Assembly (NCBI GenBank): GCA_000153445.1 | Contig: CH672396.1 | Span: 529,668 to 593,667, forward strand | Direction of reading: 5' to 3' | Length of the DNA stretch: 64,000 nucleotides | From: a gamma proteobacterium HTCC2207 | GTDB taxonomy: Bacteria; Pseudomonadota; Gammaproteobacteria; Pseudomonadales; Porticoccaceae | Shown here: in pieces, positions 2,120 to 14,759 of the stretch | How the letters are laid out: each line of letters begins with the position of its first letter | How positions within the stretch are numbered: position 1 is the first letter of the stretch | Position numbers and translations under genes: made by a program | Notes under the pieces: generated by a model | Told to the model about the DNA's origin: nothing | Seen by the model: only the letters and a program-made list of their open reading frames with translations | Database searches by the model: none

Positions 2120-3469
2120 ATGCGCATTAAGGCTGTGGTATCCATATTTACCCTGGTATCACTGGGTTTCACATCGTATCTCGCGATAGCTAATCAGACC
2201 CCAGCGTCTAAGCCCCCACCAATACCTCAGGTGCCCCTTGTGTCAGAGCAGCCTATGCAGGGGGTGCCCCCGGCGCGCAACTCACAGGTCACCATGCACA
2301 ATTTCCGTGACTACCCGCTGAATCAATGGGCCTTTCAAAATATCGGTGCGCCACTCAATACTGTAGTGATCCCTCGTCAGGGCAATATTGCTGACTTGCC
2401 GGGTCCATCCCAATCCCAGCTCGGCGATAAACTCTTCACCACCGCAACGGGGCAGCAGCAGTCCTTTGACCAGATATTCGAGAGCAACTATGGCGATGGT
2501 GTCGCGATAATTAAAGGCGGCCAATTGCTCCATGAACGCTATTTCCACAGCTTTAATGTCCATGCTCAGCATATCTGGTTCTCCATGAGTAAATCTCTCG
2601 CCAGCAGCGCCTTTGGTCTGCTTGTGGAGCAAGGTAAAGTATCGTTGGATAAATCACCCGCGGACTATATTCCGGAGCTCAAAGGCAGTGGTTTTGAGCG
2701 CGTCACCATCCAGCAGCTGTTGGATCACGCCACCTCCTTAGATTTCAAGGAAACCTACACCGATATCACCTCAGATTTTGCCCTCTATTATGTGCCGGCC
2801 CTCAATATGGGTTGGCTTCCCGGCGCCCGGGATGTGCAGCCAAATAATAGTGAGATCTACGGGGTGCATGATTTTCTAAGTCGCTTTATCAAAGCGGATC
2901 CCAAGCGCGAACCCGGCGATAACTTTGATTACAACTCGAGCAATGCCGATGTGCTTGGCTGGTTGATTGCTCGGCTCAGCGGACAGCCATTTCAAGACTT
3001 TATTCAGCAGAATATCTGGGCCAAGCTTGGTGCCGAACACGATGCCACTATAGCTGTAGATAGAGCCTATATGCCGGCCGTCACCGGCGGCATGAACAGC
3101 ACATTAAGAGACGCTGCACGCTTTGGCATGATGATTCGCGACTCGGGCAAGTTTAATGGCCAGCAGATTATTCCCAGAAAATGGGTCGAAGCGACCCTGG
3201 ATGTCAGTGATCAGCTCAAGGCCAATATGGCCGCCAACAGCAATTATCAGGAAGAAACCTGGTCCGCTTACCACAATATGTGGTGGATTCTGGATGAGAG
3301 TATTGGCGAGTTTGCGGCTGTGGGTATTCATGGGCAGGTGATTTATATTAACCGCAAAGCCGATACAGTGATGGCCTGGTTTTCCAGCCAACCAGTGGCA
3401 GGTGCCGCACGAAATGAAAGCTTTAGGGCCAAGTTGAAAGCGGCGCGAGAGATGGCTGCGGGGCTTTAA
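2120..3469 (+). CDS. Secreted class C beta-lactamase-family serine hydrolase
   Basis: A 449-residue serine hydrolase of the beta-lactamase/esterase EstB/penicillin-binding family, exported by an N-terminal signal peptide (hydrophobic 5-22, then a Pro-rich linker). The active-site SxxK is S155-M-S-K158. The second motif is Y271-N-S273, and the third position, normally KTG or HxG, reads H404-G-Q406. Such proteins are esterases, amidases or D-aminopeptidases more often than resistance enzymes, and the substrate here cannot be read. The ATG has a strong ribosome site (AAAGAGGAG, 2105-2113). It follows the GH16 gene but has its own ribosome site and a hairpin upstream, so it may be transcribed separately. 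A second, shorter family member lies at 40227-41471. Confidence 0.85.
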   Translation: MRIKAVVSIFTLVSLGFTSYLAIANQTPASKPPPIPQVPLVSEQPMQGVPPARNSQVTMHNFRDYPLNQWAFQNIGAPLNTVVIPRQGNIADLPGPSQSQLGDKLFTTATGQQQSFDQIFESNYGDGVAIIKGGQLLHERYFHSFNVHAQHIWFSMSKSLASSAFGLLVEQGKVSLDKSPADYIPELKGSGFERVTIQQLLDHATSLDFKETYTDITSDFALYYVPALNMGWLPGARDVQPNNSEIYGVHDFLSRFIKADPKREPGDNFDYNSSNADVLGWLIARLSGQPFQDFIQQNIWAKLGAEHDATIAVDRAYMPAVTGGMNSTLRDAARFGMMIRDSGKFNGQQIIPRKWVEATLDVSDQLKANMAANSNYQEETWSAYHNMWWILDESIGEFAAVGIHGQVIYINRKADTVMAWFSSQPVAGAARNESFRAKLKAAREMAAGL

Positions 3470-3491
3470 GCGCTGCTTCCATGTAGGTTAT

Positions 3492-5021
3492 TTAAGTTGG
3501 ATCGGTTACTGGGGCGCCTAGCTGTTTGTCTGGGCCCCGCAGTATCACTGCCATTGGCAGCATCGCTAGCACCACCCACATCATTATTTTAAAGTCATTT
3601 AGATAGGCAATAGTCGACGCCTGTCGATTGATTTCCATATCCAAAAGCATCAGCCCTGAAATTGCCTCGTTATGCAGAGCCTGCGGAAACTGCTGCAGCC
3701 CCATGCTGGTGATATAGGGGGTGATATTCTCGGTAAGATAGGCGTGCTGAGTTTGCAGATCGCGGGAAAACAGTACAAAGGCCGCTGAGACGCCAATACT
3801 GCTGCCGAAATTGCGCACTAGGCTAAATAGTCCTGCGGCCTCTGTACGATATTGCGGCTCCAGCGTGAGATAGGCGAGCGTGCTGAGTGGCATAAACACA
3901 AACCCGAGACCCAAGCCCTGCAGAAAGCCGGTGCTAACAATTCTATGTGCTGGCACAAAGGTGTCGAAATGAGTCATTAGCCACAGGGAGTAGGCGGTCA
4001 ACAATAGGCCAACGACTACTAGTGCCCGAGGGTCGAAACGATCGGCAAACTTGCCTAGCAGGAACATCGACAGCATGGTGCCAATCCCGCGAGGTGCCAG
4101 TATGGTACCTACATCCAATACCGGATAACCCATAATCCTCTGCAGATAGTTGGGCAGCAGTGCCATGGTGGCGAGCAGAATCAGCCCCATAAAAAACATA
4201 AAAATTAGGGCGCCGGTAAAATTGCGGTCGCGAAGAATTGCCGGTGTTAAAAAGGGGTTTTTGGCAGTTTTGGTATGCACTACATAGACCCAGAGTGCCG
4301 ATAGCACTACTGCGCAATAGAACTGTATTTCTATGGAATCGAGCCAGTCGAGATGATGGCCGCGATCGAGAATCAACTGAATACCGGCGATAACTAAAGC
4401 CAGAGCAAAGAATCCCAAGCCGTCAAAGGGTCGCTCTTCACGCTCAGTCTCTGGCATTAGAGTCAGAATAATAAATAACACCACTACGCCAAACGGCAGA
4501 TTGATATAGAACACCCAGCGCCAAGAATAATACTCAGTGAGAAAGCCTCCCAGAGTGGGCCCTAGAATAGGCCCAATCATAATGCTCACAGTCCACATGG
4601 CCATGGCCTTGACGTGGTCTTCCTTGGCATTGATATCGAGCATAATGGTTTGAGAAAGCGGCACCAGTGCCGCGCCGAACAGTCCCTGCAAAATACGAAA
4701 GCCAATCATCTCGTTGAGAGAGGTGGCTGCACCGCAGAGCAGAGAGGTCAGCGTAAAGCCGGCGATGGAAATCAAGAAAACGTTTTTTCGCCCATATCGC
4801 CCAGACAGCCAACCTATAGGCAGGGTCATAATCGCCGACGCGACTATATAAGAGGTTAATACCCAAGCCAGCTGGTCCTGAGTTGCTGACAAACTGCCCT
4901 GCATATGGGGCAGAGCGACATTGGCAATGGTGGTGTCGAGCATTTGCATAATGGAAGCCAGCATCACTGCCAGAGTCACCGCGGATTTGGCTCGTGGTGT
5001 CAGTTCAACTTGAACTGACAT
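3492..5021 (-). CDS. emrB: EmrB/QacA-type 14-TM MFS drug efflux transporter
   Basis: Inner-membrane proton-coupled multidrug exporter of the DHA2 family, 509 residues, the usual length. TM1 carries D29-T-T, typical of the family. Motif A (GWLSGRYGRK) is at 70-79 and the antiporter motif C (GPILGPTLGG) at 150-159. The gene is third in a marR-emrA-emrB operon, 69 bases after emrA, with a good ribosome site (GAGGT) before ATG. By analogy with EmrAB of E. coli it would join the EmrA-like adaptor and an outer-membrane channel encoded elsewhere to expel hydrophobic compounds. The specific drug is not visible. Confidence 0.9.
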   Translation of the reverse strand: MSVQVELTPRAKSAVTLAVMLASIMQMLDTTIANVALPHMQGSLSATQDQLAWVLTSYIVASAIMTLPIGWLSGRYGRKNVFLISIAGFTLTSLLCGAATSLNEMIGFRILQGLFGAALVPLSQTIMLDINAKEDHVKAMAMWTVSIMIGPILGPTLGGFLTEYYSWRWVFYINLPFGVVVLFIILTLMPETEREERPFDGLGFFALALVIAGIQLILDRGHHLDWLDSIEIQFYCAVVLSALWVYVVHTKTAKNPFLTPAILRDRNFTGALIFMFFMGLILLATMALLPNYLQRIMGYPVLDVGTILAPRGIGTMLSMFLLGKFADRFDPRALVVVGLLLTAYSLWLMTHFDTFVPAHRIVSTGFLQGLGLGFVFMPLSTLAYLTLEPQYRTEAAGLFSLVRNFGSSIGVSAAFVLFSRDLQTQHAYLTENITPYITSMGLQQFPQALHNEAISGLMLLDMEINRQASTIAYLNDFKIMMWVVLAMLPMAVILRGPDKQLGAPVTDPT

Positions 5022-11300: not shown

Positions 11301-12815
11301 CTAGGGCTGGCTCGGTTCTAGTTGGATATTGAGCAGATAGTCTGCCACCGCCAATTGGGTCTCTGCATCCAGATAATTTTGTGCCGGCATCTCAGGATAC
11401 TCTGGACGAACCTTAAACGGCGCATTGATATAGCTAACAATGCCCTGTGGATTATTCGCATACATCGCCTGAATATCGCGTGTCGAAGGACCGATCAACA
11501 CATCATCATAAGCATGACAGCCCGCACAGATGCCCATATAGGCGATTTCACCGCGCTCGGCTGACGCGATAATCCTTGGCTTGGCAGCGCCTGGAATCAG
11601 GTAGTTATGGATGCTATCGGTGTTGCTAAAATCGCACTCAGCAAAGTCACCGAGCCCTACATGGTGGTAGCGATGACGGTTGATTATGCAGCTATCTTGA
11701 CTGGGCCCGATCTGAAAAATATCTATATCGCCTGTATGCAGTTCAGTGAGAGCAAAGGCGCGAACTTCGTCGATAGTGTCATAGCCATTGTTGTGCATCA
11801 CATTGTCGAGAATCATCACTCGGTCGGCATTGGGGTCCACATCTGGGTCCAGAGTTAGGCCTGGGGCATTGCCGTGATCGTTGATCAATATGCCCGCGAC
11901 TTTGTGGTCGACGATAATATTGCCTTCGATAATCACATCATCTGCCGCCATTACCAGAATGCCCGTACCAGAGGGAATGCCTGCTACGGTAGAGCCGGGC
12001 GCGGCAAAATTGGGAATGTTGTTATCGAGGATAAAGTTATTGCGAATAATGACATCGTAGGTGGTTTTGATCGGCAGGCCCGGCGTGATAAACGCGAGAA
12101 TGCCGCCGCTGTTGTTGTAGGTGTAATTGTTCTCGACTACGGCGTGGCGACTGTTTTCGATTTCGATGCCGGCAACGCTGTCGAACACTTGGTTGTGGGC
12201 AACATGGATATTGTCACTCATGCCCACATAGATCGCTGCGTCGGCAATACCTGAAACAATATTGTGTTCAATCAGGCCATTGACACCGAGCTGGGGGAAA
12301 ATTCCGTAGATGCCGGTATCGATAATTATATTATTGCGAATCTCAAAATTGTTACCGGCCTGACTCATAATGCCATTGCCTTTGTAGCGAGTAATTTTAA
12401 AATTGGCGATAAGAATATTATTCCCCGAATAGAGAATCGCATCATTGAGTTTGCCAAGGCCATCTAACGTGGCTCGCTCACCCGCCTTGATCACACCCAC
12501 CAGATGAATATCGTCTTTGTCTATATAGACAGTTTCTGAATAAATGCCGGGCATTACCTGAATCGTATCGCCGGGCTGGGCGGCTTCTACCGCGGCCTGT
12601 ATCGAGTCGCCGGGATTGACGGTAAGGATTTGACCATTGACCGTTCGCTCTGGCAGGGCAGTGTTAACGCTGTCGGCTTGATCACCACCGCCATAGCTGG
12701 CGCCACCGACGCTGCTCGTAATCTGCGGCGAACTGTTGAGGTTTGTCGCCAATTGCCAGCCGCCGACAAAGGCTACCAACGCAATGATAATACCCAGTGT
12801 TTTAGCTTTTTTCAT
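11301..12815 (-). CDS. Parallel beta-helix protein fused to a C-terminal cytochrome c domain
   Basis: A 504-residue exported protein with an N-terminal membrane anchor (about 7-24). A right-handed parallel beta-helix follows (about 60-370), full of NosD-like repeats such as NNILIANFKIT, NNFEIRNNIII and DDVIIEGNIIV. A C-terminal class I cytochrome c domain has haem motif C430-A-G-C-H434 and a later Met in YPEMPAQ as likely sixth ligand. A short Cys-containing segment (DSCIINRH..AECDF) joins the two. It begins 12 bases after the stop of the di-haem peroxidase gene, so the two are surely an operon. The beta-helix could bind a polysaccharide or copper, and the haem could pass electrons to or from the peroxidase. 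Both ideas are inference; I know of no characterised homologue. Confidence 0.85.
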   Translation of the reverse strand: MKKAKTLGIIIALVAFVGGWQLATNLNSSPQITSSVGGASYGGGDQADSVNTALPERTVNGQILTVNPGDSIQAAVEAAQPGDTIQVMPGIYSETVYIDKDDIHLVGVIKAGERATLDGLGKLNDAILYSGNNILIANFKITRYKGNGIMSQAGNNFEIRNNIIIDTGIYGIFPQLGVNGLIEHNIVSGIADAAIYVGMSDNIHVAHNQVFDSVAGIEIENSRHAVVENNYTYNNSGGILAFITPGLPIKTTYDVIIRNNFILDNNIPNFAAPGSTVAGIPSGTGILVMAADDVIIEGNIIVDHKVAGILINDHGNAPGLTLDPDVDPNADRVMILDNVMHNNGYDTIDEVRAFALTELHTGDIDIFQIGPSQDSCIINRHRYHHVGLGDFAECDFSNTDSIHNYLIPGAAKPRIIASAERGEIAYMGICAGCHAYDDVLIGPSTRDIQAMYANNPQGIVSYINAPFKVRPEYPEMPAQNYLDAETQLAVADYLLNIQLEPSQP

Positions 12816-12827
12816 AATTGCTCTCGC

Positions 12828-14069
12828 TTATGTTTTTTCACTGCTCGATTTTTGACTATTGTTGTCTCTAGCCGCTTTGCCGCTAATAGTTGTCAGTCCC
12901 GACGGCACTGTGTGGGGAACGGTTGGCAACATGCTGCTGTCGCTAAGGGTGCGCATAAAGTCGACCAAACGATCGAGCTCATCGGCATTTAAATCCGGTT
13001 CGGAGATATGCCAGTGCAGCAGCAGGTCTTCCCCTTCAGGCACTGCATGGCCGCGTCCACCGCTGTAAAACTCGGCGACTTCGCGAAGTGTTTGAAAGCG
13101 CCCTGAGTGCATATAGGGTGCAGTCTCGGCAATATTTCGCAGGCTCGGCACTTTAAATCCGCCTTTTAATTTAACCGAATCAAAGGTTTTTTCTGCGCCT
13201 ATATCCCGAGGCATATCCTCAGGTTCCGGGGAGCCAATCACGGCGATCTGCTGATTGGTAAACAGCGGTGGCATATGACATTGGGAACAGCGGGCCACAA
13301 AGGAGCGGAAGATATTGAGTCCCTCGATCTCCTGGGCATTAAGTGCTTCGCCATAACCATGGGCATATTGATCATAGCGGCTGTTAAGCGAGATCAATGA
13401 GCTCTGAAAGGCCGCCAGAGCTGTGGCAATCTGATCAAGACTTAGGTCCTTGGTGTCAGGGAAGGCCTGTTTAAAGAGTTTTGGATAGGCCTCCACTGCT
13501 CGAAGACTGCTGAGCAGTTGGCTGGGGTTATTACCCATTTCCTGAGGTGAGAAAAGCGGACTCAATGCCTGTTCTTCTAAACTTTGGGAGCGGGCATCCC
13601 AAAAGAAGTCTTTTAAAAAAGCACTGTTCCACAGGCTTGGAGCAGAGCGGCTGCCCAGCTGGCCATGGATACCCACGCTACGCCCGAGCCCATCGCTAAA
13701 TCCTTGACTGGGGTTGTGGCAACTTGCGCAGGAGACGGACTGATCTGCCGACAGCACTGGGTCAAAAAACAGTAATCGACCCAGATCAATTTGTTCGGGG
13801 CTAAAGCCATCGCGATGGGCCGGCAGAGCGGTTTTGAGTCCACCTATGCCATGGTCACCCAAGGAGTTGTAGAGTTGATAGAGATTGCGCAGCAGGCATT
13901 GATTGTTGTCGCTGAGCAAAAAACTAGCGGGGCAGTCTGAGGAGAGCGTTGTGGTTGCTGGCTCCACTGAGCTAGCAGTGCTGCAGAATCCCAAAGCACT
14001 GAGTAATAGCAGGCGGTAAACCTGTTTAATCAGATTTTGACGAGGTAGTGTTGATAACAAAAATGCCAT
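12828..14069 (-). CDS. Di-haem cytochrome c peroxidase / MauG family protein
   Basis: A 413-residue periplasmic protein with a signal peptide (about 12-33) and two haem c motifs, C114-A-S-C-H118 and C261-S-Q-C-H265, in the spacing of bacterial cytochrome c peroxidases and MauG. The C-terminal segment VPSLRNIAETAPYMHSGRF is the family's conserved region around the second haem. Enzymes of this family reduce hydrogen peroxide or oxidise protein side chains. It is first in an operon with the beta-helix/cytochrome c protein, which is a natural candidate for redox partner or substrate. Whether it is a peroxidase or a MauG-like oxidase cannot be decided from sequence alone. Confidence 0.9.
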   Translation of the reverse strand: MAFLLSTLPRQNLIKQVYRLLLLSALGFCSTASSVEPATTTLSSDCPASFLLSDNNQCLLRNLYQLYNSLGDHGIGGLKTALPAHRDGFSPEQIDLGRLLFFDPVLSADQSVSCASCHNPSQGFSDGLGRSVGIHGQLGSRSAPSLWNSAFLKDFFWDARSQSLEEQALSPLFSPQEMGNNPSQLLSSLRAVEAYPKLFKQAFPDTKDLSLDQIATALAAFQSSLISLNSRYDQYAHGYGEALNAQEIEGLNIFRSFVARCSQCHMPPLFTNQQIAVIGSPEPEDMPRDIGAEKTFDSVKLKGGFKVPSLRNIAETAPYMHSGRFQTLREVAEFYSGGRGHAVPEGEDLLLHWHISEPDLNADELDRLVDFMRTLSDSSMLPTVPHTVPSGLTTISGKAARDNNSQKSSSEKT

Positions 14070-14207
14070 ACTACGGCCTGATTTTATTATTACTCTTATC
14101 TCTTTAAGTGGATAAGATGTTTTTCTTAGGGCGCTATTATGCCATAGTCGAAAACTGAAATGGCGCTACCAATAACAGCCATTAAATTTACGTTTGAGGG
14201 ATACATT

Positions 14208-14759
14208 ATGTTCAAGGTTTTAGGTTTATCGCCGGCGCTATCGTTGGTCACGCGTGCGCTTTCTTCGCTCACGGCTCTTTTTTCGCTCACGGCCTTTTTC
14301 TCGCTCACGGCCCTTTTCTCGCTCACGGCTGTTGCTGGCGGACATCTACCCGGCGAGAAAGGTGCGCATGAGCACCATCATCATGATCATGGCAGCATGC
14401 ATGCCGCGTCTGCAGCAGTGGCCCAAGTTTCATTTATTCAGCCCACCGACGGTCAGGTATTTAAAACCGGCGAGGTCAGTGTGGTTTTCGGAATCGAAGG
14501 TATGTCAGTAGCTCCCGCAGGCACGGATACGCCTAACTCGGGTCATCACCATCTGCTGATCAATGTTGAGCAAATGCCCGATATGACCATGCCATTGCCC
14601 GCTTCGGACAGTATTCGGCACTTTGGCAAGGGGCAGACTGAAACAACGTTAAACCTAGCACCGGGAACCCACCGTCTGCAGCTGTTGCTGGGTAACTATG
14701 CGCATATTCCCCACAACCCGCCGGTCATGTCTGACGTCATTGAAATAACGGTTAAGTAG
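14208..14759 (+). CDS. DUF4399 family exported His-rich protein
   Basis: A 183-residue exported protein of the DUF4399 family: conserved FIQPTDGQVF, GHHHLLIN, FGKGQTET and GTHRLQLLLG..HIPHNPPV. Just after the signal peptide is a His-rich stretch (HEHHHHDHGSMH) that could bind metal. I place the start at the ATG with GAGGG seven bases upstream. The signal peptide is abnormally long because of an 18-bp DNA repeat coding FSLTAL (14265-14336). The gene is divergent from the peroxidase operon with about 140 bases between. Function unknown; a periplasmic metal or copper role is plausible given the His-rich stretch and haem neighbours. Confidence 0.8.
   Translation: MFKVLGLSPALSLVTRALSSLTALFSLTAFFSLTALFSLTAVAGGHLPGEKGAHEHHHHDHGSMHAASAAVAQVSFIQPTDGQVFKTGEVSVVFGIEGMSVAPAGTDTPNSGHHHLLINVEQMPDMTMPLPASDSIRHFGKGQTETTLNLAPGTHRLQLLLGNYAHIPHNPPVMSDVIEITVK
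14265..14336. repeat. Four 18-bp tandem repeats in the DUF4399 signal peptide
   Basis: Units begin at 14265, 14283, 14301 and 14319, each starting TCGCTCACGGC. Each codes six residues of the pattern S-L-T-A-L/F-F, so the hydrophobic core of the signal peptide is built from repeats. Gain or loss of units would keep the frame but change the length of the exported segment. Confidence 0.9.

Follow-up and report, generated by a model that had tools for sequence, protein, structure and literature searches.

Within a 64,000-nucleotide stretch of contig CH672396.1 from the gamma proteobacterium HTCC2207 (hereafter the window; coordinates are those of this stretch), two neighboring genes encode a di-haem enzyme of the MauG type and a parallel beta-helix protein that ends in a cytochrome c domain, which we call the fusion. 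Because the di-haem enzyme adjoins the fusion in nearly every genome checked, the two proteins very probably constitute a functional redox unit. Both genes lie on the minus strand, as do all features of the two proteins described below. The di-haem gene (12828..14069, 413 amino acids) comes first in the order of transcription and is identified by its open reading frame and a 184-bit match to PF03150, with scores below the cut-offs of the MbnH and MauG models. The fusion gene (11301..12815, 504 amino acids) follows after an intergenic gap of 12 bases (12816..12827) and is identified by its open reading frame, by matches to TIGR03805 and PF13229, and by full-length homologs in many genomes. These positions agree with an earlier reading made from the sequence alone, which had also proposed that the genes encode a working pair, a proposal that the co-occurrence counts given below (41/42, 6/6, and 38/40) support. 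At an E value of 0.001 or better, the di-haem protein is the sole PF03150 match and the fusion the sole NosD-profile match in the window's own genome, which is 98.6% complete.

Our search of the order covered 293 genomes at a fusion threshold of 453.9 bits, with the next beta-helix matches at 175 bits or less. The fusion is present in 42 of these genomes, the window included, and the di-haem gene lies upstream of it in 41. The reverse search returned 41 di-haem matches of at least 492 bits, all in the same 41 genomes, the next match scoring 241 bits. Three of the fusions are cut at contig ends (in G410, G528, and G626), and G528 and G626 retain the di-haem gene; G410 is considered below. A sample of 398 genomes of the phylum gave seven fusions of at least 660 bits, again including the window (next, 197 bits), and the di-haem gene is present at all six new loci, one of which (G939) belongs to another class of the phylum. 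Both genes also occur at three further loci from a class sample (G352, G256, and G120). Finally, a contig search yielded 40 loci, mostly from Porticoccaceae/SAR92 and additionally from Paraglaciecola, Aestuariibacter, and a Wenzhouxiangellaceae genome; 38 have the di-haem gene just upstream, and for the other two (L038 and L039), the contig starts within the fusion. The contig-search and genome-search loci overlap in at least five cases, and the counts are therefore not additive. The sequence-only reading had named common occurrence of the fusion without the di-haem enzyme as an observation that would count against it. Across the order, phylum, and contig searches, we found no locus with readable upstream sequence that lacks the enzyme, the G410 locus being cut. 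Of the fusions in the order search, that of G541 (locus L126) has the lowest score, and here a gene for a 356-residue protein with a TPR match (3029-4099, plus strand) stands between the di-haem and fusion genes.

The gene trees of the di-haem protein and the fusion are largely congruent. From 83 loci, 12 were left out as duplicates or fragments and one by length. The remaining 70 pairs share 39 of 67 splits, 26 of them with strong support, with a distance correlation of r = 0.84 and 6 conflicts in 1804 comparisons of strongly supported splits. A common species history contributes to this congruence. These 70 pairs and the window make up the 71 aligned pairs to which the conservation counts below refer.

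The di-haem protein belongs to the CCP_MauG superfamily (PF03150, 184.1 bits versus a cut-off of 25.6, E 3.2e-54). Its two haem motifs are CASCH at residues 114-118 (13716..13730), by homology the peroxidatic-type haem, and CSQCH at residues 261-265 (13275..13289), and C114, C117, H118, C261, C264, and H265 are invariant (71/71). Tyr335 (codon 13065..13067), Gln167, Trp157, Cys46, and Cys58 are likewise kept in 71 of 71 sequences and Glu177 in 70, the remaining row having an X at that position. The best NCBIfam match is the MbnH model TIGR04039, at 225.7 bits below its cut-off of 362.85, and the score against the MauG model TIGR03791 (191.4 bits) is also below the equivalog cut-off of 443.85. 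Peculiar to the subfamily is an N-terminal segment (residues 42-95, 13785..13946) that includes Cys46 and Cys58; in the generic MauG-type matches listed, the alignment does not start before profile position 85-101.

Tyr335 is the predicted axial ligand of the second haem. In the comparison with PDB structures, the alignment ends at query residue 337 and MauG residue 296, which places Tyr335 on MauG Tyr294 if no gap falls within the last residues. Alignments with MacA end just before the Tyr335 position, which is that of the Met ligand of MacA. A classical CcpA peroxidase, with Met on the second haem, was considered and rejected given Tyr335 in 71 of 71 sequences, in a register taken from the alignment ends. 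The sequence-only reading had left the class at MauG/CcpA; because Tyr335 is invariant at the position of MauG Tyr294, the MauG half of that assignment holds and the CcpA half falls away. The protein therefore looks like a di-haem enzyme whose second haem is predicted to have a Tyr ligand, MauG-type rather than a classical Met-ligated peroxidase. According to the available passages of PMC6405878, the second haem has Tyr-His ligation in MauG and BthA, whereas canonical peroxidases use Met-His.

The fusion, at 176.4 bits against a curated cut-off of 141.5, is a member of the TIGR03805 parallel beta-helix family and also matches the Pfam Beta_helix model (PF13229, 1.2e-23). Its right-handed parallel beta-helix spans residues 62-397 (11625..12632), as judged from an AlphaFold2 (AF2) model and a fold search, and a mono-haem class I cytochrome c domain, recognized by invariant residues and profile matches, forms the C-terminal end (residues 415-497, 11325..11573). 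This domain carries the haem c attachment motif CAGCH (residues 430-434, 11514..11528) and the ligand Met476 (codon 11388-11390). C430, C433, H434, and Met476, together with Cys376, Cys394, and Met199, are kept in 71 of 71 fusions, and no Trp column of these alignments reaches 95% conservation. Profile matches of the cytochrome domain are to the single-domain PDB cytochromes c-552/c-551 (E 8e-5 and weaker); a Pfam scan of the window fusion at E 0.01 gave no cytochrome match. A beta-helix ending in a cytochrome c domain, as first proposed from the sequence, is thus substantiated by TIGR03805, CAGCH, Met476, and the weak c-551/c-552 matches. The membrane anchor proposed along with it fared less uniformly. 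The window protein does have an N-terminal hydrophobic segment, seen in the alignment, that is likely a signal anchor (residues 1-24, 12744..12815; helix predicted at residues 2-24), but anchoring is not conserved, the N-termini of the L118 and L125 homologs resembling, as judged by eye, probable cleavable signal peptides.

The AF2 model of the fusion has a mean predicted local distance difference test score (pLDDT) of 72, with blocks 61-240 at 81-94, lower values beyond, and a poorly predicted cytochrome domain; the region compared in the fold search is mainly residues 58-397. The best match in VIA-align is AlgE6 (Z 31.8, root-mean-square deviation 2.2, 282 aligned residues, 17% identity), AlgE4 and RbmB are also among the best, and the NosD structure 7o0y reaches Z 27.9. 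The AlgE/AlgG mannuronan C5-epimerases and the RbmB lyase thus resemble the fusion in their beta-helix fold (Z 27 to 32), at 15-18% identity, but they are not redox proteins, and the likeness is one of fold only. A fold that the modeled fusion shares with AlgE, RbmB, and NosD demonstrates no function. The YGIFPQ sequence of the fusion resembles the YG-x-DPH motif of AlgE, a resemblance left unconfirmed by a profile search against solved structures, which gave only cytochromes. As for the term NosD-like in the sequence-only reading, it is apt for the fold and not for the subfamily: the fusion exceeds the cut-off of the Pfam NosD model (43 bits), but the NosD subfamily model TIGR04247 gives 53 bits versus a cut-off of 300, and NosD orthology is rejected.

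Members of the TIGR03805 family also occur with another cytochrome partner, TIGR03806, and TIGRFAMs reportedly described that pair as of unknown function. The neighbor of the TIGR03805 gene is over the TIGR03806 cut-off in all six of loci L073-L078 (362-397 bits versus 313). At L050, L056, L083, and L084, both domains lie in one long protein, with TIGR03806 scores (175-256 bits) below the cut-off; these are TIGR03805/TIGR03806-like dihaem fusions of ~900-1050 amino acids (L083:6684-9752 and L084:6986-10120, both minus strand, and also L050 and L056). We aligned the window family with 11 other TIGR03805 proteins, 10 of them from loci paired with or fused to TIGR03806, and found 35 near-invariant positions common to all, including Y170, G171, P174, D192, Y196, E218, E220, and N221. 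TIGR03805 proteins with another type of cytochrome partner thus have this core as well, and the beta-helix is therefore likely to bind something that the two kinds share, probably a ligand that the cytochromes serve. Met199 of the window family is Gln in all 11 other proteins of the alignment.

The window pair and the TIGR03805/TIGR03806 pair are alike in their beta-helix family, their motif core, and a c-type cytochrome partner alongside or fused, and in some loci of either kind, a TonB receptor or AraC regulator is near. The window pair differs in its MauG-type di-haem partner and in the single haem of the cytochrome c that is joined to its beta-helix. Its di-haem neighbor is a PF03150 protein of the MauG type with no TIGR03806 match, which places it outside the TIGR03805/TIGR03806 pair as defined. 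TIGR03806 was not found elsewhere in the window's genome, but the 14 genomes used as controls were equally without a match, and this genome-wide absence is therefore not firm. Several genomes hold both the fusion and a second TIGR03805-like match, and one is therefore not a simple replacement of the other. The open-access literature yielded no description of this beta-helix cytochrome/MauG-type pair, nor a characterized pair with a known substrate, which had been the second observation named as counting against the initial proposal. The statement that no such system had been described stands to that extent, but its beta-helix family, TIGR03805, is already catalogued with TIGR03806 partners. 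The window pair is accordingly a new redox-partner variant of a catalogued, uncharacterized TIGR03805 kind.

From the family name, we infer that the SO2930 and SO2931 loci are namesakes of TIGR03806 and its partner. In the available literature passages, both are placed among outer-membrane or extracellular cytochromes; SO2931 was deleted along with other outer-membrane multihaem cytochromes in one study and in another is called a cytochrome c lipoprotein, listed under Fe/Mn oxide reduction. The beta-helix is not treated in those passages. At L077, the TIGR03805/TIGR03806 pair and a TonB receptor adjoin a gene for a pyrroloquinoline quinone-dependent alcohol dehydrogenase (TIGR03075) with one CxxCH (2699-4858, plus strand).

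Of 42 genome-search loci (L080, L081, L115-L134, and L165-L184; L082 was omitted, its upstream sequence being too short), 34 have a cytochrome c4-like dihaem gene upstream of the di-haem gene, as do five of the six further phylum loci. The c4-like protein of L118 matches PDB entry 1etp (E 6e-14). The eight genome-search loci without the gene are L125, L131, L181, L165-L168, and L173, and the last five of these are apparent duplicates of contig-search loci. Among the contig-search loci with at least 2.7 kb of upstream sequence, c4 is found in 3 of 30 (L028, L031, and L032). The strongest c4-like matches of the window's genome are at other sites, away from the pair. The gene order TonB receptor, AraC regulator, c4, di-haem enzyme, fusion is seen in Paraglaciecola and Aestuariibacter (Alteromonadaceae) and in four genomes of one family, and three receptor queries found a TonB receptor in 17 of the 42 genome-search loci.

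We favor a model, to which we assign a probability of roughly 40%, in which the MauG-type enzyme oxidizes a ligand held by the beta-helix and the fused haem, with c4 where present, relays electrons; its close rival is a tethered peroxidase. The di-haem enzyme and the fusion would form a periplasmic redox pair, in which the core that the beta-helix shares with other TIGR03805 proteins would hold a periplasmic ligand. Peroxide would activate the MauG-type enzyme, which would then oxidize the bound ligand, and the fusion haem, along with cytochrome c4 where present, would pass electrons between the ligand site and the respiratory chain. In many non-SAR92 genomes, the c4-like dihaem protein would be a third member, giving five c-haems per module. 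The pairing, the haem motifs, the predicted ligand positions, the beta-helix core, and the c4 gene are read from sequence, from which we also infer the Tyr ligation of the second haem. Taken together, the near-strict pairing, the MauG-type ligand set, the haem of the partner, and the presence of c4 in many genomes point more to electron flow than to a one-off modification.

Several observations weigh against the favored model. Most of the evidence is also compatible with a simple peroxidase or with an enzyme that modifies its partner. The fusion of G410 (83% complete, 460 contigs; locus L100) is truncated where its contig ends, and the best that this genome yielded in a search for the di-haem subfamily was a generic relative at 150 bits; either the di-haem gene lies in the missing part or the genome is a true exception. 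The AF2 model of the di-haem protein (pLDDT 45) is too poor to use. Cytochrome c4 is not essential, since 27 of the 30 contig-search loci, mostly of SAR92 type, do without it, and L211 (G758, a fifth genome of the f142 family) has c4 with a divergent receptor and no recognized AraC gene. The 35 carriers chosen for a plug search contain 1416 TonB plug matches, ~40 each on average, although two of these carriers of the pair, G526 and G411, have none. With TonB receptors this abundant among the carriers, receptor adjacency is weak evidence, and since two carriers lack a plug match, the receptor is rejected as an obligate partner.

Somewhat less probable than ligand oxidation is that the fusion only donates electrons to a periplasmic hydrogen peroxide reductase and that the beta-helix is a scaffold. 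Such an arrangement might be likened to tri-haem quinol peroxidases such as YhjA, in which a membrane-linked extra haem is fused to and feeds a di-haem peroxidase core, with the difference that the extra haem of the window pair is on a separate beta-helix rather than fused to the peroxidase. It would account for a donor haem encoded beside the enzyme, for c4 upstream at many loci, and for the conservation of Gln167 and Glu177, the residues that we take, from MauG and the peroxidases, to be expected at the peroxide site. It would not readily explain why the beta-helix core is conserved beyond the apparent needs of a scaffold and is common to proteins with the other cytochrome kind. In the available passages of PMC6405878, BthA, a Tyr-ligated member of the MauG superfamily, has peroxidase activity with an external donor; replacement of its Tyr by His abolishes the near-infrared bis-Fe(IV) feature with peroxide reduction retained, and the Y463H variant shows comparable kinetic values, which favors the peroxidase. 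Canonical peroxidases, however, have Met and not Tyr on the corresponding haem (PMC6405878), which speaks against it. BthA further differs from the window enzyme in that its disulfide is near the C-terminal end, whereas the two invariant Cys of the window subfamily are N-terminal, and those passages name no beta-helix partner for it (PMC6405878).

We regard as unlikely the alternative that the di-haem enzyme acts like MauG on MADH and oxidizes residues within its own beta-helix partner to build a cofactor or metal site. The window pair resembles MauG-MADH in its di-haem CCP_MauG superfamily enzyme, in the Tyr aligned with the sixth-ligand position of the second haem, and in its dedicated partner. 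It differs in its sub-threshold score against the MauG model and in a partner that is a haem-bearing beta-helix without conserved Trp. MbnH offers a second parallel as the best-matching model, and MbnP is its dedicated partner; here again the score is below the cut-off, and the partner is a different kind of protein. The residue modified in MbnP is a Trp. Beyond the near-strict one-to-one pairing and the Tyr at the second-haem ligand position, this alternative could draw on Met199, invariant in the MauG-paired proteins and Gln in the other TIGR03805 proteins. A one-time modification, however, needs neither a built-in haem nor a c4 partner, and the fusion has no Trp at 95% conservation, whereas in MADH it is a Trp that is modified (PMC6405878). 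A MADH-like Trp modification is therefore rejected as the conserved function, and the partner modification put forward in the sequence-only reading survives only away from a conserved Trp. One such version, in which the MauG-type enzyme installs a Trp-free protein-derived redox center in the beta-helix, for example by oxidation of Met199 or its cross-linking to a neighboring Tyr, strikes us as doubtful. If it were true, the beta-helix would become catalytic, as a subunit connected to the haem that it carries. We know of no described peroxide-built cofactor of such a kind. A NosD-like role in copper handling or nitrous-oxide-reductase maturation is very improbable, since the Pfam NosD match and the 7o0y fold similarity are set against the low TIGR04247 score and better fold matches to AlgE and the RbmB lyase.

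Divergent from the di-haem gene, the window carries a gene for a DUF4399 protein (14160-14759, plus strand) with a His-rich N-terminal stretch (HEHHHHDHGSMH). A DUF4399 gene is also divergent from the di-haem gene in six SAR92-type loci (L002-L006 and L008), and at L076 one lies upstream of a TIGR03805/TIGR03806 pair. A metal link of this neighbor is possible.

Carriers of the pair include marine bacteria of the SAR92 type, a group with a wide distribution in coastal waters, as well as other bacteria. To our knowledge, the partner has been identified for only a few MauG-type enzymes. That of the window enzyme is tightly linked, haem-bearing, and drawn from a broad uncharacterized family, and the pair thus offers a handle on the function of the TIGR03805 beta-helix as well as on how MauG-type enzymes are fed or used.

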